DNA from: Candidatus Uhrbacteria bacterium
Lineage (GTDB): Bacteria > Patescibacteriota > Patescibacteriia > 2-12-FULL-60-25
DNA length: 64,000 nt
Direction: 5' to 3'
NCBI GenBank assembly: GCA_021413945.1
Contig: JAIOPK010000015.1
Location: 1 to 64,000 of the forward strand
Below are positions 8,969-55,464 of this stretch, in pieces. The notes beneath the pieces are model-generated. The model had not been told where the DNA came from, did not search any database, and saw only the letters and a list, made by a program, of their open reading frames with translations. Position numbers and translations under genes: made by a program. Position 1 is the stretch's first letter. Each line of letters begins with the position of its first letter.

Positions 8969-9643
8969 CTAATCAATTATCTTCTTGATGTCGTAATCAT
9001 CGATATTTCCATTAATACTTATCGCATGCTCAATGTATTTATTGATGTCTACTATAAAATAGTCCCACTTTACTGGATATATATAAGAATGGTTATCGCC
9101 AACATGGATTGCGCCACCTCCGGAATGGATACTACATTCAGTTGTCTGCGACACCTTCCGATTGAACATGTTCTTACCCAACATTAGGAATGCGGTTCCG
9201 ATTTCCCAAGAAGTACACCCTCGCATGCAAACATTTTTGACGAAATATTCGTAACTCCCATTTTCATCCGGAAGCACAATCGCCAACATTGCGTTTGTTT
9301 TGCTAGTCCTACCTTCACGGCTTGATTCACGCAAAGAGAAGGAGATCTCCCATGGGATCCACTGGTCTTTCTCCGTCTTGGACGGATCTTTCATATTTTT
9401 TGAAATAAAAACAACCGTCAAACTACTATCAAAAATTTTGTCACGCAGTTTTGAAGCGATCGTTTCGTCCGTGAATTGCCCCAAGTCCTCACCGTCATCT
9501 TCACCTTTATAAATATGGTCCTCAGCGTCGATCATGGTAGCCAACGAGTCTACATAATGTCGAGCCTGAGTATTATCAATATTTTCGATAGGGCGCACTC
9601 CTGGGTCGCCATATTTATAGCTGACAAATATCTTCCTCCCCAT
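8969..9643 (-). CDS. TIR-domain protein, possible immune NADase/cyclase
   Basis: A 224-residue protein whose first 145 residues look like a bacterial TIR domain of the Thoeris ThsB/DUF1863 kind. It starts MGRKIFVSYKYGD, has TVVFISKNMKDPSK near 76-89, and DQWIPWEISFSLRE near 93-106, where Glu99 is the likely catalytic glutamate. Family members make signal molecules from NAD or degrade it during phage infection; that role here is inferred. The last 70 residues are unassigned. It lies 27 bases after a membrane-protein gene in the same direction, and both are AT-rich compared with the flanking housekeeping genes. Confidence 0.75.
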   Translation of the reverse strand: MGRKIFVSYKYGDPGVRPIENIDNTQARHYVDSLATMIDAEDHIYKGEDDGEDLGQFTDETIASKLRDKIFDSSLTVVFISKNMKDPSKTEKDQWIPWEISFSLRESSREGRTSKTNAMLAIVLPDENGSYEYFVKNVCMRGCTSWEIGTAFLMLGKNMFNRKVSQTTECSIHSGGGAIHVGDNHSYIYPVKWDYFIVDINKYIEHAISINGNIDDYDIKKIID

Positions 9644-9670
9644 AATGCGCCAGTAAAATTAATTAATAAG

Positions 9671-10153
9671 CTATCTGTGAAACCCATGTCGTCCATGTAA
9701 GTAGCGTTGGTGTTGCACTGACCATGCTTGATGAGTCCCGAGCGGGGGCATTGCTGGCTTCGTGACAAAAGCTACGACCAGCATCTGACCAAGAACGAGA
9801 CCTCCGTAAAAAATGAGAGCGGTTTTCGATACTGCGCAATGGTGCCATCTAACACCCTTTCGGTGAGCGGATGTATCCATCGAGAAGTCGATCGCAGCCT
9901 CATCTTTCACCCTGACTTCGTCATACAGCTTCACAAAAAGACGCTCCTGCCAAAGATAAAAACTATCCAGTAGCCAAAAGAAAAGGAGAACAACGAACGC
10001 GACGCAGATATAGAGTCCGTTCAATTCTTTGAAACTAACCGCGAGCAAACCACCGACAATGGTCACGGCCCAACCCTTTAAAATAAAACTATTCCCGGCC
10101 ATCCGATTGATGGTCGTCTGAATGAATTCAAGATGCTTGAATTTCGCCTCCAT
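9671..10153 (-). CDS. Multi-helix membrane protein paired with TIR gene
   Basis: A 160-residue protein with a short amphipathic N-terminus (MEAKFKHLEFIQTTINRMAG), two hydrophobic helices (about 25-43 and 47-65), a charged segment (LWQERLFVKLYDEVR, then DEAAIDFSMDTSAHRKG) and a third helix near 110-130. The tail after it (VQHQRYLHGRHGFHR) is His/Arg-rich and looks unusual. It is the first gene of a likely two-gene unit with the TIR protein, with its own promoter. By analogy with immune systems that pair a signalling enzyme with a membrane effector, it could be the effector; this is inference. Confidence 0.65.
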   Translation of the reverse strand: MEAKFKHLEFIQTTINRMAGNSFILKGWAVTIVGGLLAVSFKELNGLYICVAFVVLLFFWLLDSFYLWQERLFVKLYDEVRVKDEAAIDFSMDTSAHRKGVRWHHCAVSKTALIFYGGLVLGQMLVVAFVTKPAMPPLGTHQAWSVQHQRYLHGRHGFHR

Positions 10154-10168
10154 AATTCGACGATCAAC

Positions 10169-10197
10169 AAATTAGCGAAATAGCAGTCCTTGGTCAA
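10169..10197 (-). promoter_or_regulatory. Promoter of the membrane-protein/TIR unit
   Basis: -35 TTGACC (10192-10197), 17-base spacer, -10 TAATTT (10169-10174). It lies next to a short inverted repeat (GCAGTC...GACTGC) that could be an operator. The stretch between 10154 and 10275 holds no gene. Confidence 0.5.
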
Positions 10198-10275
10198 GAC
10201 TGCTAGGACGCTCCTGATTTCTCTACAGGATATACGTACTCGGCTCCTACTCCAGACTACAACGAGATATAATCG

Positions 10276-10297
10276 AAAATGGCCTCAGGGCCATTTT
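10276..10297 (-). terminator. Terminator after DUF3892 gene
   Basis: AAAATGGCC and GGCCATTTT form a 9-bp stem with a 4-base loop, directly at the stop codon of the DUF3892 gene; T-rich sequence follows on the minus strand. Confidence 0.65.
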
Positions 10298-10505
10298 ATC
10301 TTTGATTGACGTTGTCCCTTTTTGAAGAATCCGGATTATCGCGGACATACTTCTTGCCTTCAATTTTTACCGTGTGAGCCCCGGGATGCTTGCCTGCCTC
10401 GACCTCTTTTACTGCTTGGGGTCGCGACACATGTTTACGATCACCAATTCTGTAACTCTCGTTCCGCCCATTCGGGCCGTCTTTATTGCCTCGGATCTGT
10501 GTCAT
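10296..10505 (-). CDS. DUF3892-like small protein
   Basis: A 69-residue basic protein. The middle and end (SYRIGDRKHVSRPQAVKEVE, then KIEGKKYVRDNPDSSKRDNV) resemble DUF3892, a small domain of unknown function with a conserved KxYVRxNPD-like end. Proteins of this kind often occur near mobile or defence genes, and here it sits between the restriction-methylase and the TIR unit, but no activity is known. It is monocistronic by appearance, with a palindrome upstream and a hairpin at its stop. Confidence 0.6.
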   Translation of the reverse strand: MTQIRGNKDGPNGRNESYRIGDRKHVSRPQAVKEVEAGKHPGAHTVKIEGKKYVRDNPDSSKRDNVNQR

Positions 10506-10513
10506 AGGATTAC

Positions 10514-10535
10514 GGTTAATTCCTAGAAATTAACC
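10514..10535. promoter_or_regulatory. Perfect palindrome, possible operator
   Basis: GGTTAATT and AATTAACC are perfect 8-base arms around a 6-base centre, 9 bases upstream of the DUF3892 start and 46 bases after the end of the restriction-methylase gene. There is no T-run, so a dimeric repressor site is more likely than a terminator. Confidence 0.4.
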
Positions 10536-10580
10536 CTCGCATGTGCGAAAAGACCACGCAAGATGTTTCGTTGCCGATAT

Positions 10581-13334
10581 TTATCGAGCCTCTTCTACAA
10601 TACGAATCTCATTGCCAGTCAGATTGTAGAGTTTGTACACTAGTTGGTCGATCGTGCGATCGGTTGATTCGATTTGGCGCATCATTGAGACTCGTTCTTC
10701 TTCTGATTTTAGACTTTCAAACTGATCGCGCAACTTGAGTTCGATCAGAACATTTTCTTGCATCTCGGAATACAACTGATTTTCTAGCTCTGATTTAAAG
10801 TCGATGTTTTTTATTGGGAGGCTGAGTAAAGCATTCTTGAGCACATCGATTGTTACAAAGTAATTGCTATAAAAATAATTCAATAGCCGAGAGTTGATTA
10901 TGCCGAGTATATAAAGCAGCGAGAGCTGCTTGTCATTAGGAAGTAATAACATCGCATCTTTTACGTACAGCCCGCCTGGGTCATAGGACGCTACGAGCGC
11001 CTTACCCATTCTCGCTACAACAATTTTTTCAGAATTAAATCTTTCCTTTGTACCGGGTCGCGCTGTCTTAGCATTCTTTATCATTTCCTCTGGGATATAC
11101 CGTACATATTCAGACGGTTTATCGAAGTGATACTTTTTTACCCCTGCACTGCGTATAAAAGGCTTGTCTTCTGGGTATCGCGACACTTCGGAAATGAACT
11201 TTTTATCATCCGCAGTTTTAAATCCATATTGGAAGTTGATAAATTCAGACAAGGGACTACCCTTCTGCCTAACCTTCTCTAAAAGCGCATCACCCGTAGC
11301 AGCACTGTCTAGATTAAAATTATAAAGATGCGATTGTTCAATTGCTAAAAGTTGAAGATTGCGAACAAATGTCACTTTTCCGCCAGAGTCTAAGCTTTCA
11401 ATAACGATTTCGTTTTCTTTGGTAGGACTTTCTGTACGTTCAAAACGAAAAATGCATGTTTCTACAGTTGCTTTTTGAAAAACTTTCTTTGGTAGTTGGG
11501 TGAGGCATTCAATATTTACGTTACTTAAAATGTAGCGTCTAATCCTCGAAAAGCTCTCGAGAGATGTCCATGTTTTGGGAACGATAAAACTAAATTCGCC
11601 ACCTAATTTCGAAATATTAATTCCTTTCTCAATGAAGACTGAGTACAGGTCCGATTTTGCGACAAAAGTCTGATATGTTTTCCAAATAGCTTTTTTTGTT
11701 TCGACTGGTATATTTTTTGGTCTTACGTATGGCGGGTTACCTATAACTGCATCAAACCCGCCTCGGCTGAACACATCTTTAAACTCGATTTCCCAATCGA
11801 ACGGATTAATTCGTGCTAAAGCAGCCGGGTCTGAAATATCCTGCCCAGTGAAATAATTTGTTCCTATGAGCGAATTCCCACACTTAATATTATCCCCTAG
11901 TCGCGGAAGCATCCGGTCGTTAAACAAACTCTGTTGCTCTGGTGAACTCAGGGCCTCCAGCATTAAAGACAACTTGGCCATCTCCACCGCCTGTCGGTCT
12001 AGGTCAACGCCATAAATATGCGCTGTTAGAATGCGCTTCTTTTCTTCGAGCGTTAGTTGCCACTGTTCGCTCTCGTCGCGATAAATCTTCGAAGCTTTTT
12101 GATGCTTCACTGCATTGTCGGCTACGTACCAATCGCGGTACCAATCGGCTAGGAACTTGTACGCTCCAAGCAAGAACGAACCCGAACCGCAAGCCGGGTC
12201 GACGATGGAGAGTTTCTCGATTTGCTTAGGCGTTTTACCCTCGACGAGCTTTCCTACCGTATTTTTTACAATATATTCAACAATATACGTCGGCGTGTAG
12301 TAGATTCCGCCCGCTTTTCTGACTTCTGGCTTCAGCTCAACTCTTGCATGACCGCCTTCAGTCAAGCGGATTACCTTGCCTAGAAACTGTTCATAAACCT
12401 GTCCGAGAATTTCAGCCGGAATCGCATCAAACTTGTATGGACTCTTCGGGAAATAGAGTTCTGAAATAACCTCTTTCAAAACTTTGTCATCAATCTTTAG
12501 ATCAGCGATCGATTCGACCTCGAAAAGATCAGAATCATAACGCTGTTCGGCTTTCTTAAAAAGTTTATAGAGCTTTTTATAGTTATCCTCACCCTCAATC
12601 ACATTGCTCAACTCCCCTTCATGTGCAATCCCTCGATCTTCACAGATACGCAAAAACAAAATACGCGCGATTGAATCCTGCACGATACGATTCAGCCTCT
12701 CTTCCGGAATCTTGTTGCGGTTCGCGATGTTATGGGCCAACAACTCGCGCCATTTGGAAATATCGTCCAATAACTCGTCATCCACGGCCTGCTGGGCTCG
12801 TTTCTTGGTCAATTTCTCTAACGATCCGCCGAGAACGGCTTCGCGTGAAAACAACCCGGCGATTTCATCCCATCGCTCGACATATTCTGTGAATTTTATG
12901 CAATCGAGGCGGGCAATCTTGGCAGCATCACTCGACTTTGGCCTTATGGCCGTATCGTAAATGGAAAGTTCTTCAAAATCCGTCAGAATGCTGCGTGCCG
13001 TTTTTGCACTCCAGCCATATCCTCGCAACTGCAGTGCCGCATCCTGATTGCTACAGACATTCAGAGCGGGCTTCTTGGCTTCAACGAAAAAACGGAGTTT
13101 CTTGTCTAAATAAAAACCAAAGTCAGGAGCCTTGCCGTGTACAAGCTTCTCGTAGTGCACGTCTCGATCAGCTCCTTTGGCGAGCTTATTCTCCATGTCC
13201 CATCCTAAAACTTCAAAAAATGGGTTCAGGAACTCCGTTCGCAGCTGTTCCTCGTTGTACTCGTTCGATTGATAGTAATTGAAGTTCTGCTTGAAATTCT
13301 CAACGAGCTCAATGATCCGTTGCGGGACTGGCAT
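10581..13334 (-). CDS. Type IIG-like restriction endonuclease-methyltransferase
   Basis: A 917-residue single-chain restriction-modification enzyme of the Eco57I/Type IIG kind. Residues 1-160 carry a PD-(D/E)XK-like nuclease (APDFGFYL with Asp71, then FFVEAKKP with Glu86 and Lys88). The adenine-methyltransferase core has the SAM motif DPACGSGSF near 378 and the catalytic NPPY motif near 533. The last 350 residues look like a TaqI-type target-recognition domain (YGFKTADDKKF, NSRLLNYFYSN). One protein would both methylate and cut. It starts 21 bases after the pgk stop and has AT-rich codon use unlike the surrounding glycolytic genes, which suggests transfer. Confidence 0.88.
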   Translation of the reverse strand: MPVPQRIIELVENFKQNFNYYQSNEYNEEQLRTEFLNPFFEVLGWDMENKLAKGADRDVHYEKLVHGKAPDFGFYLDKKLRFFVEAKKPALNVCSNQDAALQLRGYGWSAKTARSILTDFEELSIYDTAIRPKSSDAAKIARLDCIKFTEYVERWDEIAGLFSREAVLGGSLEKLTKKRAQQAVDDELLDDISKWRELLAHNIANRNKIPEERLNRIVQDSIARILFLRICEDRGIAHEGELSNVIEGEDNYKKLYKLFKKAEQRYDSDLFEVESIADLKIDDKVLKEVISELYFPKSPYKFDAIPAEILGQVYEQFLGKVIRLTEGGHARVELKPEVRKAGGIYYTPTYIVEYIVKNTVGKLVEGKTPKQIEKLSIVDPACGSGSFLLGAYKFLADWYRDWYVADNAVKHQKASKIYRDESEQWQLTLEEKKRILTAHIYGVDLDRQAVEMAKLSLMLEALSSPEQQSLFNDRMLPRLGDNIKCGNSLIGTNYFTGQDISDPAALARINPFDWEIEFKDVFSRGGFDAVIGNPPYVRPKNIPVETKKAIWKTYQTFVAKSDLYSVFIEKGINISKLGGEFSFIVPKTWTSLESFSRIRRYILSNVNIECLTQLPKKVFQKATVETCIFRFERTESPTKENEIVIESLDSGGKVTFVRNLQLLAIEQSHLYNFNLDSAATGDALLEKVRQKGSPLSEFINFQYGFKTADDKKFISEVSRYPEDKPFIRSAGVKKYHFDKPSEYVRYIPEEMIKNAKTARPGTKERFNSEKIVVARMGKALVASYDPGGLYVKDAMLLLPNDKQLSLLYILGIINSRLLNYFYSNYFVTIDVLKNALLSLPIKNIDFKSELENQLYSEMQENVLIELKLRDQFESLKSEEERVSMMRQIESTDRTIDQLVYKLYNLTGNEIRIVEEAR

Positions 13335-13355
13335 ACGGTAAGGAGCTTACAAGAA

Positions 13356-14552
13356 CTACTTCATCAACGCCAATAACCCCGGAAGTTTTCCTTTGAGACT
13401 CAAGAACTCGAGCATGGCACCGCCTCCAGTTGAGATAAAGTCGAACCATTTGGCGGTTTTTGTTTCCGCGAGAATCGGCAGAGTATCTCCCCCACCGGAG
13501 ACGCCGAAGGCGGGGCCCTTGGCGCGAGTGGCGATGATGCGTGCGAGGAAGCGCGATCCGTTTCCGCATGGCCGGCACTCTGTCCAGCCGACAGGTCCGT
13601 TCCAGAGAATCGTTTTCGATGAGCCGAGAATCTTTGACCAGGCCGCGAGCGTTGAAGGACCGATATCGACGATGATGTCTTTCTTGCCAATGGCATCGAC
13701 CATGACGCGCTTGAGTTTTGGGTTTACGACGAGCTTGTCGGCAACCATAACGTCGATAGGTAGGACAAGTCCGGTTTTTTTGAGAAGCTTCCCCGCATCG
13801 GCGACCGAATCTTTTTCCAAATACGATTTCCCGACTTGAAGTTTCTTTGCGACGAGGAACGGTGTCGCCATGGCTCCTCCGACGAGGACTTGGTCGCATC
13901 GCGCGAGCAGTTCCTTTACCACGGGAATTTTTGTTGAAAGCTTTTTTCCTCCAATGACCGCGACAAATGGCGATGACGGCTTCTCAAGCAAACGGCCTAG
14001 GTGTGCGACTTCTTCCGTCAGGCTCGGTCCCGCATAGGAAGGAATGAGCTTGGCGATACCGACGACCGAGGAATGGGCGCGGTGGCAGGAAGCAAACGCA
14101 TCGTTAATAAAAATGTCACCGAGCGAGGACCACGCCTTGGAAAGCGAGATGGCGTTCTTCTCTTCTCCTTTCTCAAATCGGACATTTTCCAACAAATGGA
14201 TAGAGCCAGGTTTGGCTTTTAACAGACGTTCGGCAAGACGTTTCCGGTCGTCAGGCCTGGATACGGATTCCGGATGAAATGCGATCGAGAGACCGTATCG
14301 CTTCATGCGTTTGGCAAGAAAATGCGTCGAGTGGACCTTGTCCTTTCTCTTGGGTCTTCCAAAGTGCGTTAGCAAGATCACGACGGCTCCACGTTTTGAG
14401 AGTTGTTTGATAAATGAGACCGAACGCTCGAGCTTGAGCGAGCCTTCGAGACCGTGGACGGCGGCATCCGGCACATTCCAATCAACGCGCACCAAGATAG
14501 GTGCGCCTTTAATTTTTTGTTTGGGAGAAAATGTACGGAGATTCAACTTCAT
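13356..14552 (-). CDS. pgk: Phosphoglycerate kinase
   Basis: A 398-residue glycolytic kinase that makes ATP from 1,3-bisphosphoglycerate. It has the N-terminal substrate loop (VRVDWNVP; usually DFNVP), THFGRPKRK, the HRAHSSVVG segment, ILWNGPVGWTE and the C-terminal GVSGGGDTLPIL. The ATG overlaps the TGA of gap by 4 bases, so the two are translationally coupled. The next gene downstream is the restriction enzyme, not another glycolytic gene, and no terminator is evident between them. Confidence 0.95.
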   Translation of the reverse strand: MKLNLRTFSPKQKIKGAPILVRVDWNVPDAAVHGLEGSLKLERSVSFIKQLSKRGAVVILLTHFGRPKRKDKVHSTHFLAKRMKRYGLSIAFHPESVSRPDDRKRLAERLLKAKPGSIHLLENVRFEKGEEKNAISLSKAWSSLGDIFINDAFASCHRAHSSVVGIAKLIPSYAGPSLTEEVAHLGRLLEKPSSPFVAVIGGKKLSTKIPVVKELLARCDQVLVGGAMATPFLVAKKLQVGKSYLEKDSVADAGKLLKKTGLVLPIDVMVADKLVVNPKLKRVMVDAIGKKDIIVDIGPSTLAAWSKILGSSKTILWNGPVGWTECRPCGNGSRFLARIIATRAKGPAFGVSGGGDTLPILAETKTAKWFDFISTGGGAMLEFLSLKGKLPGLLALMK

Positions 14553-15565
14553 TTTTTTCCGTTAATGGCTTTGCCGACGTGGAGCGCCATTTCCGCCAAG
14601 CGATGCGAGTAGGCCCACTCATTGTCATACCAAGCGATGACTTTCACGAGATCGCCGTCGACAACTTTTGTTAAACCAAGGTCGGCGATGGATGAGGCGG
14701 GGTTGCCGATGAAGTCGGACGAGACGAGAGGTTCTTCCGTGACTTCCAGAATCCCCTTCCAGCGGGCGTTCTTGGAAGCTTTCTTCAACGCATCGTTTAC
14801 TTGCTCGACCGTGACTTTCTTTTTGAGAACAAAAGTGAAATCGCAAAGAGAAACGACTTGAATCGGAACGCGGATTGAGAGGCCGTCGAACAGTCCTTTC
14901 AATTCCGGAATGACTTCCGTGGTGGCGATCGCTGCGCCCGTTGTTGTTGGCACGATATTTTCTGCGGCGGCGCGCGCTCGTCGGAGATCCTTGTGCGGAC
15001 CGTCTTGTAAATTCTGGTCGGCGGTGTAGGCGTGGATCGTCGTCATCATCGCTTTCTTTACACCGAACACTTCATGCATGACCGCGGCGATGGGCGTCGT
15101 GCAGTTGGTGGTACAGCTTGCGTTGTTGATGACCTGTGCACCTTTACCCGCATCCTTTTCATTTACGCCGATCACAAATGTCGGAACGTCTCCCCCTTTT
15201 GCCGGTGCGCTGATGATGACGCGCTTGGCTCCGGCCTCGATGTGCTTTGACGCGCCGGCGAGATCGGTGAAGTGACCGGTGCACTCAAGCACGATGTCGA
15301 TACCGAGCTTGCCCCAAGGCAAAACAGCCGGATCTTTCTCTGCGTACACAGCGACAACTTGTCCGCCGACTTTAAGCGATTTGGCATCCGCCGAGATTAC
15401 GCGATCCCAGTTTCGGTAAGCGGTGTCGTGCTTCAAAAGATGCGCGAGGGTTTTGGTATCGGTGAGGTCGTTGATCGCCACGACCTCGAAACCGGGTTTG
15501 TCGAAACCGGCTTTGAACACGTTACGGCCGATACGGCCAAAGCCGTTGATAGCGATGCGGGGCAT
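14549..15565 (-). CDS. gap: Glyceraldehyde-3-phosphate dehydrogenase, type I
   Basis: A 338-residue NAD-dependent GAPDH. It begins MPRIAINGFGRIGRNVFKAG, has the active-site SCTTNCTTPI with the catalytic cysteine near 155, and ends in WYDNEWAYSHRLAEMA. The start at 15565 is set by this canonical N-terminus; the open frame continues upstream but only through the tsf terminator. The promoter is an extended -10 (TGTTATACT) ending 11 bases before the ATG. It forms an operon with pgk. Confidence 0.96.
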   Translation of the reverse strand: MPRIAINGFGRIGRNVFKAGFDKPGFEVVAINDLTDTKTLAHLLKHDTAYRNWDRVISADAKSLKVGGQVVAVYAEKDPAVLPWGKLGIDIVLECTGHFTDLAGASKHIEAGAKRVIISAPAKGGDVPTFVIGVNEKDAGKGAQVINNASCTTNCTTPIAAVMHEVFGVKKAMMTTIHAYTADQNLQDGPHKDLRRARAAAENIVPTTTGAAIATTEVIPELKGLFDGLSIRVPIQVVSLCDFTFVLKKKVTVEQVNDALKKASKNARWKGILEVTEEPLVSSDFIGNPASSIADLGLTKVVDGDLVKVIAWYDNEWAYSHRLAEMALHVGKAINGKK

Positions 15566-15576
15566 AGAATGAATAC

Positions 15577-15585
15577 AGTATAACA
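15577..15585 (-). promoter_or_regulatory. Extended -10 promoter of gap-pgk
   Basis: TGTTATACT on the minus strand, 11 bases before the gap ATG; no -35 match at the expected distance. The predicted leader is about 4-5 bases, that is nearly leaderless mRNA without a Shine-Dalgarno sequence. Confidence 0.6.
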
Positions 15586-15617
15586 AAATCCCGCCGAACG
15601 TGCGTTGGCGGGATTTT
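15585..15617 (-). terminator. Terminator after tsf
   Basis: AAAATCCCGCC and GGCGGGATTTT form an 11-bp stem with an 11-base loop, 14 bases after the tsf stop. It abuts the gap promoter. Confidence 0.8.
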
Positions 15618-15630
15618 ATTTCTGCTTCGA

Positions 15631-16245
15631 TTAGCAGGCGTTGGTCGCGTGAGCGGCCATTTGCATGCGCTGGAAGCGCGTGACCACAATCTTTTCTCCG
15701 ATCGTTCCGGACAAAGCGACGATGAGCTGTTCGATCGTCCTTGTATCGTCCTTGATGAAGGATTGCTTGGTGAGGCACACGTCGGTGTACCACTTGTTCA
15801 ACTTGCCTTCTACGATTTTGAGTTTCATTTCTTCCGGTTTGTTGTCGGCGGCCATCTCGGCGAGGAATTCTTGTTTCTTTTTCTCGGCGATTTCCGCGGG
15901 AATCGTTTCCGGGCTGACAAACATCGGATCCATCGCGGCAACCTGGAGAGCGATGTCGTCGGCAAGAGCGATGAACGCCTCATTGCGGGCGACGAAATCC
16001 GTTTCACACGAGAGCTCGACGATGGCGGCCAGCTTTTTGTTGTGATGGAGATAGGTTGCGAGCAGTCCTTCCGAGGCGGTGCGCTCGGCCGACTTTTTGG
16101 CGGCCTTGATCGCTCCCTTCTTTTTCAGGACTTCGATGGCTTTATCCATGTCGCCACCGGCTTCTTCCAAAGCCATCTTACAATCCACCATTCCGGCGGA
16201 AGTGCGGTTGCGAAGCTCGAGGACCATCTTGGCGTCGATTGCCAT
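15631..16245 (-). CDS. tsf: Elongation factor Ts
   Basis: A 204-residue nucleotide exchange factor for EF-Tu. It has the N-terminal UBA-like domain (LRNRTSAGMVDCKMALEEAGGD), the conserved ETDFVARNEAF core contact motif, and one shortened C-terminal core subdomain (VCLTKQSFIKDD). Enterobacterial EF-Ts is about 280 residues, so this is a compact form of the kind common in small genomes and thermophiles. It follows rpsB by 35 bases in the classical rpsB-tsf order. Confidence 0.95.
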   Translation of the reverse strand: MAIDAKMVLELRNRTSAGMVDCKMALEEAGGDMDKAIEVLKKKGAIKAAKKSAERTASEGLLATYLHHNKKLAAIVELSCETDFVARNEAFIALADDIALQVAAMDPMFVSPETIPAEIAEKKKQEFLAEMAADNKPEEMKLKIVEGKLNKWYTDVCLTKQSFIKDDTRTIEQLIVALSGTIGEKIVVTRFQRMQMAAHATNAC

Positions 16246-16280
16246 ATGTTTTGAAAGTAAGGATTATTTTTTGGTGACGT

Positions 16281-17051
16281 TTATTTGACCGGTTCGATGA
16301 ACGCTTTGTTCATGGTCTGTCCGTTTGGGACAAGCGAGCCTCCGAGGCGGGCGCGGTTGGATTCCCAGTCCTGTTTGCCATCATTGATGGCTTGGGCCAT
16401 GAGATCGGCGATCATAGCGATCGCTTTGACGGCGTCGTCGTTGGCCGGAATCGGGAAATCGATTTCGGACGGATCAACGTTGGAGTCACAGACGGCGACG
16501 ACTTTTACGCCGCGCTTGGTGGCTTCATCGAGAGCGGTCTTATCTTTCTTCACGTCGAAGATGAACAAGGCATCCGGAATGCGGGTCAGTTCCTGGATAC
16601 CGCCGATTTTCTTTTCCAAAATCTGGATGAGTTCCGCGATCTTCAACTGTTCAAACTTGGTGTACTTACCGAGTTCACCCTTCTCCTGCTTGCGCTTCCA
16701 ATCTTTGTACTTACGAATCTGGGCGGCGATGCTCGAGAAGTTCGTGAGCGTACCACCGAGCCAGCGCTCGTTCACATACGGCATGCCACAAGCCTTGGCA
16801 GCGGCCTCGACGAGAGGTGCGGCCTGCTTTTTGGTACCGACAAAGAGGATGACACCTCCGCGACCGGCGGTTTTGCGGGCAAAACCAAAGGCCTCTTCCA
16901 TGGCCTTCTGGGTCTCCTCAAGGTTGATGATGTGGATACCTTGGCGGGAACCAAAAATGAACTTGTTCATCTTTGGGTGCCATTTGGATGTCTGGTGGCC
17001 AAAGTGCATGCCGGCTTGCAGCATGTCGGCCAATTGCGGGATCTTTCCCAT
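16281..17051 (-). CDS. rpsB: 30S ribosomal protein S2
   Basis: A 256-residue uS2 protein. It starts MGKIPQLADMLQAGMHFGHQTSKWHPKM (given here only as the family N-terminus), with FVGTKKQA, YVNERWLGGTLTNF and IPDALFIFDV motifs further along. uS2 binds late to the 30S head-body junction. The ATG has a strong AAGGAG Shine-Dalgarno, and the promoter lies about 105 bases upstream, leaving a leader of about 100 bases with a small TTCGCC/GGCGAA hairpin that could be regulatory. Confidence 0.95.
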   Translation of the reverse strand: MGKIPQLADMLQAGMHFGHQTSKWHPKMNKFIFGSRQGIHIINLEETQKAMEEAFGFARKTAGRGGVILFVGTKKQAAPLVEAAAKACGMPYVNERWLGGTLTNFSSIAAQIRKYKDWKRKQEKGELGKYTKFEQLKIAELIQILEKKIGGIQELTRIPDALFIFDVKKDKTALDEATKRGVKVVAVCDSNVDPSEIDFPIPANDDAVKAIAMIADLMAQAINDGKQDWESNRARLGGSLVPNGQTMNKAFIEPVK

Positions 17052-17156
17052 AACTTAGCTCCTTTTTACGCGCGTCCTGGGACTCCGTATTCGCCGTGGC
17101 GAACAAGGGGCTGGAATCTCCAATAGGTTGGACGAACGGTGTGATTTAGTGACGAA

Positions 17157-17185
17157 AGGATACCGAAACCCCTTGATTTTGGCAA
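17157..17185 (-). promoter_or_regulatory. Promoter of rpsB-tsf
   Basis: -35 TTGCCA (17180-17185), 17-base spacer, -10 TATCCT (17157-17162), reading left. Its -35 overlaps the -35 of the divergent promoter for the gene at 17232. Confidence 0.7.
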
Positions 17186-17207
17186 GGGTTTAGGCTAAAA
17201 GTATCGG
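17179..17207 (+). promoter_or_regulatory. Promoter of the 96-residue ORF
   Basis: -35 TTGGCA (17179-17184), 17-base spacer, -10 TATCGG (17202-17207), reading right. The same seven bases, TTGGCAA, serve as -35 for both directions. Confidence 0.5.
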
Positions 17208-17231
17208 ACGCTCTTTCCCCGGAGGTCGGAC

Positions 17232-17522
17232 GTGACAGAACAGCTCAAGGTAGTGCAAGTCAACGTGGAGACCACGGAGATGTACCACGTGTATCGAGGT
17301 GAGAAGCTCGTCGCCTACGTGATCGCAATGGATGGCAATGGCCAAGCCATCAAAGAGCTGTTGGAGCCGACTCCTGAGCGGCGCGTCCGCAGTTCCGGCA
17401 TCAGCGCGGTCAAGACCGCCGAGCGCCTCGACCAGCTGGTCCCCGATGACCCAAAGTTCAACGAGGCGGACGACGGACCGCCGACCAAGCGTCTCGGGAT
17501 TCCCGTGCGCAACAAGACCTAA
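17232..17522 (+). CDS. Hypothetical protein, 96 aa
   Basis: A plus-strand gene starting with GTG behind a GGAGG Shine-Dalgarno with a 6-base spacing. The N-terminal half (QLKVVQVNVETTEMYHVYRG, then KLVAYVIAMDGNGQ) predicts a small beta-rich domain; the C-terminal half is polar and proline-containing. I recognise no family. It is a one-gene unit with its own promoter and terminator, and its codons end mostly in G or C, unlike the housekeeping genes beside it. Confidence 0.65.
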   Translation: MTEQLKVVQVNVETTEMYHVYRGEKLVAYVIAMDGNGQAIKELLEPTPERRVRSSGISAVKTAERLDQLVPDDPKFNEADDGPPTKRLGIPVRNKT

Positions 17523-17528
17523 CTGCAA

Positions 17529-17558
17529 GACCCCTGAACCAAGCTAGGTTCAGGGGTC
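17529..17558 (+). terminator. Terminator after the 96-residue ORF
   Basis: GACCCCTGAACC and GGTTCAGGGGTC form a perfect 12-bp stem with a 6-base loop, 6 bases after the stop, with a T-run a few bases further on. Confidence 0.85.
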
Positions 17559-17580
17559 GCTACGTTTTTATAAATAGAAA

Positions 17581-17612
17581 CGCGCGCCAAACCTTTTCAG
17601 ATTTGGCGCGCG
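17581..17612 (-). terminator. Terminator after first lipoprotein gene
   Basis: CGCGCGCCAAA and TTTGGCGCGCG form an 11-bp GC-rich stem with a 10-base loop, 36 bases past the stop of the 17649-18416 gene. Confidence 0.75.
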
Positions 17613-17648
17613 CGGTAGTGCAGAGCGATGGAGGGGCGCTCTGCGAGT

Positions 17649-18416
17649 TCAGGGGAGGTTGATACGCATGGCTGCATGCGTACCGTCGAGTCCTGGGCGA
17701 TTCTCGAGTCCGCAACGGCCGCCGGGAAAGGCGGGATCCGTCGAGTACTCGGTACCACGTACCCAGAGACGCCATCCCGCATGATACGCGGGGCAGGAGC
17801 TCATGATGCAGGGCGAGGTGCCGTCAGCGTGTTCCGGATAGACGTACGCGAGTCCGGTATCGATCACAGGGGTGCCGGGATCGGGAATCGCGATCTCGCA
17901 TTCGGTCGAGTCCGCATCGATGACGCGGATGCCGCCGATACAGTCGATACGATCTGCCCAGTCGATCGTGTGAAGCGAGCCGCCGGGACGCGTCCAGTGG
18001 AACTGGGCGGCCCAGTCGGCGACGAGCGGCACTCCGTCGAGACGGATACAGATGCCCGTCGTCGTGTCCTCGCAGCGGCGCGGGGGGCCACCGTCGGGAA
18101 GCGGACCTCCGTCGACAGGACCGGAGTCCGTGCCGGCGTCGATCGGATCGGGGCCCGAGTCGATCGGACCCGAGTCGGGGCCGGAATCGACGGGACCGGC
18201 GTCGCCGTCGGACAGACCGGTGTCGGCCATGATCATGGCGTCGCCGGCGTCGTTCGGAGGCAAGCCTCCGTCGACCATGTCCGCGTCTGCGGCGGGCACG
18301 CAGGCTCCGCCGATCTGGTACATCGTACCCGGCGGACAGCTGAGCCCACTTCGATCGAGCATGCAGCCAGGCAGGGCAAGAAGCGCTACCGAGAACAAGA
18401 ACAGGTTTCGAGTCAT
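17649..18416 (-). CDS. Asp/Gly-rich lipoprotein, copy 1
   Basis: A 255-residue predicted lipoprotein. The signal peptide ends in the lipobox LPGC, placing the lipidated Cys at 18. Residues 40-110 are a low-complexity Asp/Gly/Pro linker with repeated DSGP and DAG units. A cysteine-rich globular domain of about 140 residues follows, with RRCEDTTTGICIRLDG, WADRIDCIGGIRVIDAD and SPCIMSSCPAYHAGWRLW. The domain is unknown to me; the linker style is typical of myxobacterial and other predatory-bacterium surface lipoproteins. It is closely related to the gene at 18578-19249. Shine-Dalgarno AAAGGAGG. Confidence 0.75.
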   Translation of the reverse strand: MTRNLFLFSVALLALPGCMLDRSGLSCPPGTMYQIGGACVPAADADMVDGGLPPNDAGDAMIMADTGLSDGDAGPVDSGPDSGPIDSGPDPIDAGTDSGPVDGGPLPDGGPPRRCEDTTTGICIRLDGVPLVADWAAQFHWTRPGGSLHTIDWADRIDCIGGIRVIDADSTECEIAIPDPGTPVIDTGLAYVYPEHADGTSPCIMSSCPAYHAGWRLWVRGTEYSTDPAFPGGRCGLENRPGLDGTHAAMRINLP

Positions 18417-18471
18417 TTAGCCTCCTTTCGGGAGCTAGGGGTTAAAGAACATGCCAGAATCTGAACAACGT

Positions 18472-18500
18472 AATGTAGCATAAAATGCCCGTTTTGTCAA
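18472..18500 (-). promoter_or_regulatory. TTGACA promoter of lipoprotein copy 1
   Basis: -35 TTGACA (18495-18500), 17-base spacer, -10 TACATT (18472-18477); leader of about 50 bases with a strong Shine-Dalgarno. Confidence 0.7.
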
Positions 18501-50416: not shown

Positions 50417-50814
50417 ACATTTTTACGAAAATTTTTGGACGTGATTACCCAGAGCGCGAGCGGCGCTCCCCAGTTTGCCCATCGCTCCACAAAATCCCAG
50501 ACCGGAGCTCCCGAGAGCGGGCGGATGAGAGCGGTCATGAATCCCCAGAACGCCATCCAGAGCAGGATCGGGCGCACCGGATAAACGAGGACCAAGAGGC
50601 CAAGCACGATGTCCAAGCTGCCGATCATCGGCATCAGCTGGTTCGCGAGATCGGGTCCGATGCCAAAGACGACAAAGAATTTAACCCAATCGGCTTTCTG
50701 TCCGAGGGCAAAAACGCCGTGACCGATGAACTCGCCCGCAACGGCGATACGGAGGATCCAGTTGGCGGCTTCAGGCGTTGTGAGGCGCTGCATCAATGAG
50801 GAGGGATTGGGCAT
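50413..50814 (-). CDS. DoxX-family membrane protein
   Basis: A 133-residue protein with four helices. WILRIAVAGEFIGHGVFALG and IGSLDIVLGLLVLVYPVRPIL fit the DoxX superfamily. The start at 50814 (MPNPSSLMQRL) is preferred over an in-frame ATG at 50889 deep in nrdG, because the DoxX fold begins soon after. It overlaps nrdG by 44 bases and the next DoxX gene by 4 bases. The two DoxX proteins may form a pair. Confidence 0.75.
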   Translation of the reverse strand: MPNPSSLMQRLTTPEAANWILRIAVAGEFIGHGVFALGQKADWVKFFVVFGIGPDLANQLMPMIGSLDIVLGLLVLVYPVRPILLWMAFWGFMTALIRPLSGAPVWDFVERWANWGAPLALWVITSKNFRKNV

Positions 50815-51508
50815 AGGGCTTAAATGATTCGGCGATCGTTCGCATTTCCTGCGAAGTGAATGGATGATGATTGGCGAATAACGGATCAAGTGTAACAGAC
50901 GGTCGATAGGTTTGCAGACGATAGCGCTTTGCGCCCCGGATAAGCTCCCTGATTTTTTCTATGGTTTTCGTGCTGTGACATTCGCGGATCAGCGTCGTGC
51001 GAAATTCGTAGTCGGGAGCGCGGGCCTTGATGAGCGCGATACTTTCGGCGATCGCTGCGGGTCTGATGCATGGTCCGACAAGCTCCGGATATTTTTCCAG
51101 AGATGTTTTCACGTCCATGGCGATGTAGTCGATCAGATGATCGTCGAGGAGTTCAGCCAATACTTCCGGCCTGCTTCCGTTGGTGTCGAGCTTCACCTTA
51201 AATCCCTTCTCGCGGATACGGCGCATGAAGTCGGACAGTCCGGCGTGCAGTGTCGGTTCGCCGCCCGAGATGACGACGCCGTCGAGCAAGCCACGGCGCT
51301 GATCGAGAAAGTTGAGAAACACGTCTTCCGCAATCCAGCTCTCCGACGTTTCCGCGAGGCGCTCTGTGAGAACGAACTCCGGATTATGACAGTAGCCGCA
51401 TCGAAAATTACATCCGGGCAGGAACGCGATGCAGGCGATCGATCCGGGAAAATCGATTTGGGTGAATGTCTGGACGGCGCTACACCGTACACGCGGTTTC
51501 CCCTGCAT
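50771..51508 (-). CDS. nrdG: Anaerobic ribonucleotide reductase activase
   Basis: A 245-residue radical-SAM protein that puts the glycyl radical on NrdD. The cluster motif CNFRCGYC lies near 36 with TQIDFPGSIACIAFLPG before it; SGGEPTLHAGL is the SAM-binding GGE, followed by KLDTNGS and AMDVKTSLEKYPELVG. The ATG at 51508 overlaps the end of the small radical-domain ORF by 29 bases; no better start is visible downstream. It is the natural partner of the reductase encoded just upstream. Confidence 0.9.
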   Translation of the reverse strand: MQGKPRVRCSAVQTFTQIDFPGSIACIAFLPGCNFRCGYCHNPEFVLTERLAETSESWIAEDVFLNFLDQRRGLLDGVVISGGEPTLHAGLSDFMRRIREKGFKVKLDTNGSRPEVLAELLDDHLIDYIAMDVKTSLEKYPELVGPCIRPAAIAESIALIKARAPDYEFRTTLIRECHSTKTIEKIRELIRGAKRYRLQTYRPSVTLDPLFANHHPFTSQEMRTIAESFKPYAQSLLIDAAPHNA

Positions 51509-51683
51509 AGGCCGCGAGAAAATGATGGTTTGCGGCGACGCACTCCGAAAAGTGCTTGCGGGAATAGTGCTCACTCTTTTTTCCCGTGTTGAATTGGGAA
51601 ACCGGACGGTGATAGCCCATGACGCGTGTCCAGACTTCACAGGGTGTCCGCTTGGCTTGCATGTCGGGGTGGATTTGGTTCAT
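51480..51683 (-). CDS. Separate glycyl-radical C-terminus of NrdD
   Basis: A 67-residue ORF that encodes what is normally the end of NrdD. KRTPCEVWTRVMGYHRPVSQ contains the glycyl-radical motif RVMGY, and FNTGKKSEHYSRKHFSE the following family tail. The main nrdD frame stops 23 bases earlier, in another frame. The ATG at 51683 has no clear Shine-Dalgarno. The frame stays open upstream into the nrdD coding region, and a GGAAAAAT run at the nrdD stop would allow a -1 shift to join the two. A truly split enzyme, programmed frameshift or assembly error are all possible. Confidence 0.8.
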   Translation of the reverse strand: MNQIHPDMQAKRTPCEVWTRVMGYHRPVSQFNTGKKSEHYSRKHFSECVAANHHFLAAYAGETACTV

Positions 51684-51706: not shown

Positions 51707-53821
51707 TTATTTTTCCGCTTGGGCCGATGCGTGGACGCGTCGTATCTCTTGGTCGAGATGGGGCGCTTCTATACCCAGTGCGACGTCGCAGGTTGGACAG
51801 AAGTCCCATTCCCCTTGGAGATAGCCGTGCTTGGGACAGATGGAGAACGTCGGCGTGATGGTCACATACGGCATGCGATAGCGAGTCAGGATACGGCGGA
51901 GAAGCTCGCGGCATGCTTCCGGGGAACTCGTACGCTCCGTCATATACGCATGAAGGACGGTACCGCCCGTATAACGCGTCTGGAGGTCGTCCTGCAGGTC
52001 CATAGCCTCGAATACGTCGTCCGTGTAGCCGACAGGGAGCTGGGTCGAATTCGTGTAATACGGCGCCTCCTTGGTTCCGGCTTGGAGAATGCCGGGGAAA
52101 CGTTTTTGATCCTCCTTAGCAAAGCGATACGTCGCGCCTTCCGCGGGAGAGGCTTCCAAATTGTAGAGATGGCCGGTTTCTTCCTGATATTGCTTCAATC
52201 GATCGCGCATGAAGTCGAGCACTTCTCTTGCGAAGGCGAGTCCATCTGGCGATGCGATATTCTCGCGGTCATCGGTTAGGTTGCGTATCGCCTCATTCAC
52301 GCCGTTGATGCCGATGGTCGAGAAATGATTGCGCAGGGATCCGAGAAAGTGCCTCGTGTACGGAAACAAGCCGCGATCCATCCACTTTTGGATTTCTTTG
52401 CGCTTGATCTCGAGCGATGTGCGCGACAAATCCATGAGACGTCCGAGACTTTCAAAAAAGATATCCCGATTCCCCCGAGCGATATATCCGAGACGCGCGG
52501 CATTGATCGTCACGACGCCGATGGAACCGGTCATTTCCGCGGAGCCAAACAGTCCTCCGCCGCGCTTGCGTAGCTCGTTCAAATCGAGCTGGAGCCGGCA
52601 GCACATCGAGCGGACATCGCCCGGCTTCAGATCGGAGTTGATGAAGTTCTGGAAGTAGGGCGTTCCGTATTTTGCCGTCATTTCGAAGAGTGGGAGCGTT
52701 TTTGGATCGTTCCAGTCAAAGTCTTTGCCGACATTGTAGGTCGGGATCGGAAACGTGAATGCGCGGCCCTTGGCATCACCTTCGGTCATGACCTCAATGA
52801 AGGCGCGGTTCACGATCTCCATCTCGTTCTGGAGTTCGCCAAAGGTATATTCGTAGCTCTCGCCGCCGAGGACCAGCTTTTTCTCGCGTAAATCCTCCGG
52901 ACAGACCCAGTCGAGGGTGATATTGGTAAACGGCGTCTGCGTTCCCCAGCGCGACGGCGTGTTGAGGTTGAAAACAAAGGACTGGATGTTCTGCTTCACG
53001 TATTTCCAAACACGGTCTGTAACAAAGCGTTCGCAGGCGGCCTCGTCCGGAAAGGAAACACCCGCATCTGCGAGCTCAGCACGAACTTCCTTCTCATATT
53101 TCTTCACGAAAGGCGCGAGATACGTGTCGAAGCTAGAAAATGCCTGCGCTCCGGCCCACTCGTTCTGCAAGGTGCCCAGAAAGTTCACCATTTGAGCCAC
53201 GGCGGACGTGAGATGCTTTGGCGGAGCCGACTCTGTTTTGCCGGGAACGCCGTTGAAACCCTGCTCGAGCAGCATGCGGAGGCTCCAGCCGGCGCAATAG
53301 CCGGAAAACATGTCGAGATCGTGAATATGCACGTCGCCGTTGCGATGCGCTTCTCCGGCTTCACGCGGAAGGACATGTGAGAGCCAATAATTGGCCGTTA
53401 CTTTTCCCGCGCTGTTTAGAATAAGACCGCCGAGCGAAAATCCTTGGTTGGAGTTGGCAAAAACGCGCCAATCGCTCTTTTCCAAGTATTCATCGATGGT
53501 TTTTCCGACTTCTACGACGACATCACGCGTTTCACGCGATTCGCGGCGCTTCTCTCTGTATAAAATGTAACCTTTGGCGATGTCGGCGTAGTCGTAACGT
53601 ATGAGGACGCGCTCGACGACGTCCTGCGTCTGCTCGACGGACGGGATCGCGCCGTTATATTTTTCCTCGAGATCAAACATGACCTCTTTGGCAACCAAGT
53701 CGGCCAAGCCTTCCTGATTGTTGCCTGCGGCGACGGCCGCTTTGCCGATCGCGAGACGAATTTTCTCCGGCTCAAAGTCGACGATGGCACCGTTCCGCTT
53801 TTGAATCTTGTAAATGGGCAT
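51707..53821 (-). CDS. nrdD: Anaerobic ribonucleoside-triphosphate reductase, main part
   Basis: A 704-residue class III reductase that makes deoxynucleotides without oxygen. Residues 1-90 form an ATP-cone (YKIQKRNGAIVDFEPEKIRL) for allosteric control. The barrel has NLNTPSRWGTQTPFTNITLD, CCRLQLDLNELRKRGGG and GSIGVVTINAARLGY, and near 655 the zinc-binding region FSICPKHGYLQGEWDFCPTC starts. The chain stops before the glycyl-radical motif, which lies in the next ORF. It precedes nrdG, as is usual. Confidence 0.93.
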   Translation of the reverse strand: MPIYKIQKRNGAIVDFEPEKIRLAIGKAAVAAGNNQEGLADLVAKEVMFDLEEKYNGAIPSVEQTQDVVERVLIRYDYADIAKGYILYREKRRESRETRDVVVEVGKTIDEYLEKSDWRVFANSNQGFSLGGLILNSAGKVTANYWLSHVLPREAGEAHRNGDVHIHDLDMFSGYCAGWSLRMLLEQGFNGVPGKTESAPPKHLTSAVAQMVNFLGTLQNEWAGAQAFSSFDTYLAPFVKKYEKEVRAELADAGVSFPDEAACERFVTDRVWKYVKQNIQSFVFNLNTPSRWGTQTPFTNITLDWVCPEDLREKKLVLGGESYEYTFGELQNEMEIVNRAFIEVMTEGDAKGRAFTFPIPTYNVGKDFDWNDPKTLPLFEMTAKYGTPYFQNFINSDLKPGDVRSMCCRLQLDLNELRKRGGGLFGSAEMTGSIGVVTINAARLGYIARGNRDIFFESLGRLMDLSRTSLEIKRKEIQKWMDRGLFPYTRHFLGSLRNHFSTIGINGVNEAIRNLTDDRENIASPDGLAFAREVLDFMRDRLKQYQEETGHLYNLEASPAEGATYRFAKEDQKRFPGILQAGTKEAPYYTNSTQLPVGYTDDVFEAMDLQDDLQTRYTGGTVLHAYMTERTSSPEACRELLRRILTRYRMPYVTITPTFSICPKHGYLQGEWDFCPTCDVALGIEAPHLDQEIRRVHASAQAEK

Positions 53822-53874
53822 AAGGTACGGATGTCCTCCGTACCTCTACAAACACGCGAGGCGGGCAAAAGGTG

Positions 53875-54891
53875 TCAAAGCTCTCCGCGGAGGCGTTTGC
53901 GGGATCGAGAGAGTACGAGTTTCACGGCGTTTTCTGATTTTCCCGTGCGAATCGCAATCTCGGACACGGAACAACCCTCCGTATAGAAGGCTTTGAGTAT
54001 TTGCCGGTCCGACTCGGTCAGAATGTCCATCGCGCGCTCCAGGGCATCGCGGTTTTCCATGGACTCGATCATCGACCCTGCAGGCGGGATATCCATCCGC
54101 TCGGCATTTTTCATCTCCGAGGTAATACGGCGATAGCGGTTCAAGAGCTCATTGTGCGCGATACGGAGCAAGTAGGTTTTGTACGAGGCGTTCCGGACTT
54201 GGTAGCGCGAGAGCCCGTTCATCGCCTTGATAAAAACGTCCTGTGCCAGGTCTTCCGCTTCCGCGGCGTCGGCTAAACGTCGGCGGAGGTAGCCGACAAT
54301 GGTTCCGTAGTAGCGTTCGAACAGCGATGCATACTGATGCATATCTTGCTGTGCCAAGAGGACAGAGCGATGGTCAAGGTCACGGCCGGCAAATCGTTCC
54401 GACATCGGATCGATCAGGGCGCGCTCTACGCACGAGACAACGGATTCATCGGGCAAGACGTCGATTTTTGTGCCGATCCAACGTTCGATCCAGAGTGATA
54501 ACGCGACAGGGTCGCGGGCTAATCGTTGCCATTGCGTAGAGAACTCCATATCGAACGTATTCCACGCGGCAGGGTCGGGCTGCATCGCAAAAAAGTACTT
54601 TGGCGCACCGTTTTGCATGACCGGCAATACGGTCAACAGCGACGGGAGCGTGCGTCCGGCTTTGGATCGATTTGCGAGGCGCGATGAAAACGACTTCTTA
54701 TCGATTGCGATCGACTTCCACATCGACTGGTAAAAACTCTTGTCCATGTTCCCGCCCCAGAGGTCACCGGGCTTGGCTCCGACGGATTCCGCAACGGAAA
54801 ATCCCGACCAGTTTTCCACGGATCGAGAAACGTACGCGATACGGCCGGCCGCATCGGTCACGAGCAAGACACCACGCTCCTCCCTCGTCAT
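53875..54891 (-). CDS. PAS domain fused to an ECF sigma factor
   Basis: A 338-residue protein. Residues 1-110 read as a PAS sensor (VLLVTDAAGRIAYVSRSVENW, then a KAGRTLPSLLTVLPV strand). A helical linker follows. From about 187 it is an ECF sigma factor: region 2 with LFERYYGTIVGYLRRR and AEDLAQDVFIKAMNGLSRY, then region 4 with ILTESDRQILKAFYTEGCSVSEIAIRTGKSEN split by a normal helix-turn-helix. It probably redirects RNA polymerase in response to a PAS-bound signal, without an anti-sigma gene nearby. A -10-like TTAGAT ends 6 bases before the ATG. Confidence 0.85.
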   Translation of the reverse strand: MTREERGVLLVTDAAGRIAYVSRSVENWSGFSVAESVGAKPGDLWGGNMDKSFYQSMWKSIAIDKKSFSSRLANRSKAGRTLPSLLTVLPVMQNGAPKYFFAMQPDPAAWNTFDMEFSTQWQRLARDPVALSLWIERWIGTKIDVLPDESVVSCVERALIDPMSERFAGRDLDHRSVLLAQQDMHQYASLFERYYGTIVGYLRRRLADAAEAEDLAQDVFIKAMNGLSRYQVRNASYKTYLLRIAHNELLNRYRRITSEMKNAERMDIPPAGSMIESMENRDALERAMDILTESDRQILKAFYTEGCSVSEIAIRTGKSENAVKLVLSRSRKRLRGEL

Positions 54892-54933: not shown

Positions 54934-55464
54934 TTAGTCTTCATCGTCATCGTCAAATACTTCACGACCGATCACAAAGAGGAGCGGGATTGGGGCGATG
55001 AGCCAGAATGAACGGCCGATCTCGCCGAGGAAGGCTTGCTGAAAGAAGGGCGAGAGGGTTTGGGTCGCTTCCGGCGGCAAAAGGAAGAGCGCAATGGAAA
55101 CGAGGAGACCGATCTGCGTGATACTGAACAACGCCGTCTCCCACCAGACTCCCCGTTCTTGGGCGAGGTTCTTCAGCAGGTGGCTTCGCCAGAGAATCGC
55201 GAAGATGAGGAAGAAAAGTCCGAGAAACCAGACGAGCTGGAACGCTGAACTCTTGCCGGCGTTCAGTGCTTGCGACAAGCGCGAGAGGATTGGCGCGTTG
55301 GTGACGACGGCGAGGGCGAGATATGTCGAAAGCAAGACGGTGACAGCGCGATCACGACCAACGGCGAATCCATAACCGAGTCCGGCGAGGGCGAGCAAAC
55401 AAAACAAGATCACATCCCAAGTGAATGGAAGTCCGGCGACGGCAAATTGGGCCTCGGGAGGCAT
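54934..55464 (-). CDS. Five-helix membrane protein, unknown
   Basis: A 176-residue protein with about five transmembrane helices: WDVILFCLLALAGLGYGFAVG, VLLSTYLALAVVTNAPIL, LVWFLGLFFLIFAILW, ALFSITQIGLLVSIALFLL and SFWLIAPIPLLFVIG. It ends in an acidic DDDDED tail. The pattern recalls CvpA-like proteins, but I cannot confirm the family. It lies between dnaJ and the PAS-sigma gene on the same strand, and could be read from the dnaJ side. Confidence 0.65.
   Translation of the reverse strand: MPPEAQFAVAGLPFTWDVILFCLLALAGLGYGFAVGRDRAVTVLLSTYLALAVVTNAPILSRLSQALNAGKSSAFQLVWFLGLFFLIFAILWRSHLLKNLAQERGVWWETALFSITQIGLLVSIALFLLPPEATQTLSPFFQQAFLGEIGRSFWLIAPIPLLFVIGREVFDDDDED

Follow-up and report, generated by a model that had tools for sequence, protein, structure and literature searches.

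The 64,000-nucleotide stretch of DNA analysed here (the window) encodes, at positions 53875-54891 of the minus strand, a 338-aa protein in which a PAS domain is joined in one chain to an ECF sigma factor. The genes for an anaerobic ribonucleotide reductase (RNR) and its activase, nrdD and nrdG, follow on the same strand, and a two-block, promoter-like element stands in front of nrdD. We consider it probable, though well short of established, that this protein, hereafter PAS-sigma, is a one-component redox or oxygen switch that gates RNA polymerase onto the nrdDG promoter; data on cofactor, transcript and binding are absent. With slightly less assurance, we favour the view that it represents a new one-protein class in which a flavin PAS domain directly gates an ECF sigma factor, a single promoter is served per genome and the cassette is mobile between lineages.

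The open reading frame of PAS-sigma was intact, with no stop or frameshift. The fusion was also kept in a single frame in 10 orthologues, four from the same family and six from elsewhere, which excludes an assembly artefact; the fusion is genuine. Pfam placed sigma region 2 at residues 190-255 (54127-54324, minus strand, as are all features below; Sigma70_r2, 9.5e-18) and sigma region 4 at residues 282-334 (53890-54048; Sigma70_r4_2, 2.8e-11). Regions 1.1 and 3 were absent and region 4 ended at residue 334 of 338, so that the protein, judged by its domains, is an ECF sigma factor. The acidic core-binding motif of region 2.2 was found as AED at residues 212-214, followed by Q217, and E/D variants of it occurred across the 11 members of the family. 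In a full-length AlphaFold model the sigma part was confident and its fold matched SigW, SigE, SigH and AlgU, while the PAS part was weak, and the PAS domain was therefore modelled separately. Between the two parts lies a helical linker of residues ~107-185 (54337-54573) with predicted helices at 107-124, 128-139 and 151-182. The architecture proposed in the earlier note, a PAS-like N-terminus (1-110) followed by sigma regions 2 and 4, is one on which Pfam, profile and model agree.

The PAS domain spans residues 7-105 (54577-54873). When the window sequence was searched alone, Pfam returned PAS_9 at residues 7-99 (5.5e-5) with 23.8 bits, slightly below the Pfam cut-off of 27 bits. A profile built from all 11 orthologues and compared with the PDB matched MmoS (1.4e-23), NifL (3.3e-20), phototropin LOV (5e-14) and Aer (5.8e-13), which makes the PAS assignment secure despite the low single-sequence score. 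The PAS-only AlphaFold model, for which one orthologue served as the alignment, had the canonical order of strands and helices from A-beta to I-beta at moderate confidence (mean pLDDT 64); the value was lower inside the full-length model, and neither model of the domain was fully confident. Among solved structures, the best Foldseek matches of the PAS model were the NifL-NifA complex, NifL PAS1, LOV domains and Aer, and VIA-align against the NifL/LOV/Aer set gave Z scores of 12.9-14.5. The profile search and the structure prediction that the earlier note had proposed for the N-terminal region both came out in favour of PAS, the first through MmoS, NifL and Aer and the second through NifL, LOV and Aer.

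Two residues bear on the likely signal. W58 is located on the predicted F-alpha helix (51-63) and aligned to the Trp of NifL and MmoS; N74, in G-beta, aligned to their flavin-contacting Asn and was invariant in all 11 members. The only member without the Trp, G315, carries Arg in its place, and both element and nrdD are still present there. According to a survey of PAS domains, FAD binding depends primarily on the F-alpha Trp and secondarily on an Asn and a His (PMC10468136). Within residues 1-110 of the window protein there was no heme-ligating His and no flavin-adduct Cys, and FixL-type heme sensing and LOV photochemistry were therefore ruled out. From sequence and model together we infer that the PAS domain is of the flavin type and binds FAD, without cofactor data. 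PAS domains are diverse in ligand, flavin being only one, and may do no more than dimerise; since flavin binding has not been shown and one orthologue has lost the F-alpha Trp, the domain might bind a metabolite, or act only in dimerisation or as an intramolecular lock, with nrdDG controlled by some other cue, for instance nucleotide or energy status. We regard this as unlikely, though deserving of attention, because the nearest relatives by profile and by fold are FAD redox sensors, the Trp and Asn pair is present in 10 of 11 members, and the target enzyme works only without oxygen in genomes that hold another RNR as well.

The gene behind PAS-sigma, nrdD (51707-53821), encodes a class III (anaerobic) ribonucleoside-triphosphate reductase with an ATP cone (NRDD, 3.2e-171; NF006126, 1051 bits). 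It is followed by a gene for an nrdG-type radical-SAM activase (NrdG2; 50771-51640) that matched TIGR02495 from residue 54 (2e-59); its true start probably lies downstream of the listed GTG. The earlier placement of nrdD-nrdG downstream of the PAS-sigma gene is thus correct, and the accompanying statement that the PAS-sigma gene follows the anaerobic reductase genes has to be reversed, as it precedes them.

Within the window's own family (f1, 41 genomes), full-length PAS-sigma was found in five genomes of three genera, the window's included, and the other four proteins were 71, 57, 38 and 36% identical to that of the window. Searching 381 sampled genomes of the window's class with a profile added six full-length members, giving 11 in total. 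When genome contigs were scanned, the single further full-length match (L041, Candidatus Magasanikbacteria JABIEQ010000011) proved to be on the same contig as the member from G296. No PAS relatives were found in viral contigs, and a homologue from another class (G500) lacked the conserved Asn and had no nrdD in its 4-kb locus. In nine of the 11 genomes nrdD came directly after PAS-sigma, on the same strand. Behind nrdD, nrdG was visible in eight of these nine loci; the contig of the ninth, G353, in which 0.9 kb (900 bp) separate PAS-sigma and nrdD, ends within nrdD. In G144 nrdD lies ~9 kb beyond PAS-sigma on the same contig, the two being separated by a withheld (N) stretch of ~9 kb (contig 30, about 9320-18487), and G291 encodes PAS-sigma but lacks both nrdD and the element. 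Overall, nrdD was present in 10 of the 11 PAS-sigma genomes compared with 150 of 381 genomes (Fisher p = 5e-4), a value that is merely indicative because related genomes are not independent. A separate observation in G144 was a 382-aa open reading frame one gene upstream of PAS-sigma (L168:1871-3016), similar to part of PAS-sigma (34.5%, 9e-16).

In the tree, the PAS-sigma proteins formed one group (SH-aLRT 94). The NrdD proteins of the f1 genomes with PAS-sigma were far from other f1 NrdD proteins and nested in the type of another family, f63, beside a Magasanikbacteria protein. An f63-type NrdD in f1, together with the common element, suggests that a cassette of sensor, promoter and enzyme moved between families, into f1, where it would have landed behind the dnaK-dnaJ operon.

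The window element, TGACACCTTTT-N11-GTGTTT, runs from 53877 to 53850, and the stop codon of PAS-sigma forms its first three bases. In all cases the element before nrdD consisted of TGACACCTTTT, 10-11 bases and GYGTTW (the form taken for our preferred explanation ends in GYGTTTA). The search pattern GACACCTTTT-N10/11-GYGTTW had exactly one occurrence per genome in the 10 that have both PAS-sigma and nrdD, always immediately before nrdD, and was absent from 20 other genomes (19 comparison genomes and G291). The comparison set included 13 upstream regions of nrdD of the same subtype without PAS-sigma, which lacked the element (p = 9e-7); in the comparison upstream regions whose start could be placed, the best scores were 10-12 out of 18, inside the shuffled range (9-15), compared with 17-18 in the cases. 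Across the 381 genomes there were 14 matches: 10 at nrdD, two downstream of short ECF genes and two apparently by chance, one of the latter inside a coding frame. The reversed pattern, used as a control, gave two. In G353 and G144 the element was at nrdD and not at the distant sigma gene, which speaks against a simple conserved neighbourhood as the reason for its conservation.

The two short ECF genes (G073 and G276) encode PAS-less proteins, have the element directly downstream, and fell in tree groups neighbouring PAS-sigma. At both sites (L244:1501-1720 for G073; L245:1526-1340, minus strand, for G276) the element was followed by a tiny lysine-rich open reading frame (MAKKKGGKK and MKMAKKKPAKKK) and a terminator-like hairpin, and a micropeptide may be the sole target there. 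We infer that the element before nrdD is the promoter on which PAS-sigma acts; the comparative inference is strong, and transcript and binding data are absent. The simplest reading would be that this ECF clade recognises the element and that one branch gained the PAS domain and the nrdDG target.

Some of the element might serve differently. GACACC is the 3' arm of a terminator-like hairpin, GGTGTC...GACACCTTTTTT (GGTGTC...GACACC-TTTT), in five of the 10 genomes (G036, G144, G296, G315 and G325), so that some of the element's bases may do double duty there. The element could thus be a terminator, or another regulator's site travelling with the gene pair, rather than a PAS-sigma promoter, and its presence behind a PAS-less ECF gene without nrdD in two genomes is compatible with that. 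However, the window's genome and four others keep the element without the hairpin, so termination is not its common function, and a terminator has no need of a downstream GYGTTW at fixed spacing. Against either form of the proposal, the element stays at nrdD where the sigma gene lies at a distance of 0.9 or 9 kb, is found a single time in each genome and follows the sigma clade; we hold the proposal to be quite improbable and retain the element as the putative PAS-sigma promoter.

A relaxed pattern (GACACCT, 13-14 free bases, GYGTTW) yielded nothing beyond the nrdD site in the 10 genomes, and a wider regulon was rejected on this result. No copy of the element was found upstream of the PAS-sigma gene, and autoregulation was likewise rejected. 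Of the two places where a shared -35/-10 pair had been expected, nrdD has it and the sigma gene does not. With no element upstream of its own gene, PAS-sigma is probably transcribed constitutively by the housekeeping polymerase, with its control exerted after translation.

The nrdD leader carries a hairpin, AGGTACGGA-GGACA-TCCGTACCT (53823-53845; fold z = -5.0), over the ribosome-binding site and at the predicted 5' end of the nrdD mRNA. It was kept in two congeneric genomes, and G005 has a different hairpin at the same place. NrdR is encoded in all 10 genomes with PAS-sigma and nrdD. Clear NrdR boxes were seen in G144 at nrdA and, in G185, which lacks PAS-sigma, at nrdD. No box above shuffles was found at nrdD of the window's genome or of the eight other PAS-sigma genomes scored (nrdD of G144 was left out), and NrdR control of nrdD was rejected for these nine. 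In four loci from three other families without PAS-sigma (L184, L189, L190 and L191), tandem GAAGCTCA-like repeats precede nrdD, in three of the four followed by a hairpin, and a different nrdD regulator may act there.

All 10 genomes encode a second large RNR subunit besides NrdD. In the two genomes inspected, the window's (G000) and G144, it is located beside NrdB and was assigned to class I (nrdAB), as read from the sequences without an NrdB profile search. Class I RNR generally needs oxygen for radical formation and class III is destroyed by oxygen, and a redox switch ahead of nrdDG would therefore be physiologically sensible.

In the mechanism we propose, a flavin PAS domain of the NifL/MmoS/Aer type, with the helical linker, would control a bare ECF sigma factor and decide whether it loads RNA polymerase onto one promoter, that before nrdD-nrdG. 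Loss of oxygen would lead to reduction of the flavin and release of the sigma domains, and the oxygen-sensitive glycyl-radical RNR would be produced once the oxygen-dependent class I enzyme no longer works; both steps are inferred. In particular, that PAS-sigma is active when reduced is deduced from the oxygen behaviour of the class I and class III enzymes and has not been shown. The idea of a redox or oxygen signal, raised previously, has gained from the kinship to FAD-binding PAS domains, the Trp and Asn residues, the adjacency to nrdD in nine of 11 genomes and the nrdD-unique element, but which cofactor and signal are involved, and in which direction the switch works, is still unproven.

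An ECF sigma factor usually has a distinct anti-sigma protein as its regulator. The gene adjoining dnaJ at 54934-55464 encodes a predicted membrane protein without significant Pfam or NCBIfam match; it is present in 31 of the 41 family genomes, mostly without PAS-sigma, and is probably not a dedicated PAS-sigma partner. That it is an anti-sigma holding PAS-sigma, with the PAS domain a mere adaptor, is very improbable: its f1 copies often directly precede a canonical ECF gene and may be ECF partners, and in the window PAS-sigma stands in place of that ECF, but it is absent beside the f63 PAS-sigma genes, many of the genomes that encode it lack PAS-sigma, and no anti-sigma family matches it. The earlier statement that no anti-sigma gene is nearby is nevertheless not fully certain, as this neighbour lies beside another ECF gene in about half of the relatives inspected. 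The membrane protein follows dnaJ in most f1 members, and a canonical ECF gene (~165-190 aa) came directly next in about half of the loci inspected (L227, L228, L229, L231, L234 and L240), though not in the window. Membrane protein and ECF are a candidate for an unrecognised regulator-ECF pair tied to the heat-shock operon.

If PAS-sigma does work as proposed, no path from redox state to the choice of a promoter could be shorter than a flavin sensor built into a sigma factor, and it would be clear how bacteria with such small genomes decide which RNR to use, the one that depends on oxygen or the one that is sensitive to it. With a putative regulon of one promoter per genome, the whole circuit of sensor, sigma factor, promoter and enzyme would fit on ~4 kb and could be reconstituted in vitro or in E. 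coli.

ECF sigma factors with built-in sensors have been described: CorE and OrbS with C-terminal Cys clusters, ECF41 and others with SnoaL domains, and ECF42 with TPR (PMC8999054, PMC9023288). Neither a PAS-ECF fusion nor a described ECF group extended by a PAS domain, the latter named in the earlier note as a refutation, was found in the open literature; the support this gives is weak, as the main ECF classification of 2021 was not covered. By its domains PAS-sigma falls outside the CorE and SnoaL groups; in its inferred action it resembles a FAD-PAS sensor attached to an ECF factor. CorE/CorE2 (former ECF44, now ECF238) and OrbS are, like PAS-sigma, single ECF proteins with their own sensor and no need of an anti-sigma (PMC8999054, PMC9023288). 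They respond to metals through C-terminal Cys clusters, whereas PAS-sigma has an N-terminal PAS domain, probably for flavin redox sensing, and the window protein, which ends right after region 4, has no CorE-type Cys-rich C-terminal domain. ECF41, ECF56, ECF205, ECF294 and ECF295 resemble PAS-sigma in that a small ligand-pocket domain is fused to the ECF for conformational gating. Their SnoaL fold is C-terminal and their targets are others; in the window protein there was no Pfam match to a SnoaL-like domain and no C-terminal extension. NrdR, encoded in the same genomes, is also a regulator of RNR genes, but unlike PAS-sigma it is a nucleotide-sensing repressor with its own box, unseen at nrdD wherever PAS-sigma genomes were scored. 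The PAS domain itself is closest to those of NifL (PAS1), MmoS and Aer, with which it has in common its sequence and fold as well as the F-alpha Trp and the Asn, and NifL is moreover placed in front of an oxygen-sensitive process. NifL acts as an anti-activator, MmoS through a histidine kinase and Aer as a chemoreceptor, and none of them drives a sigma factor, whereas in PAS-sigma the predicted sensor is part of the sigma factor itself.
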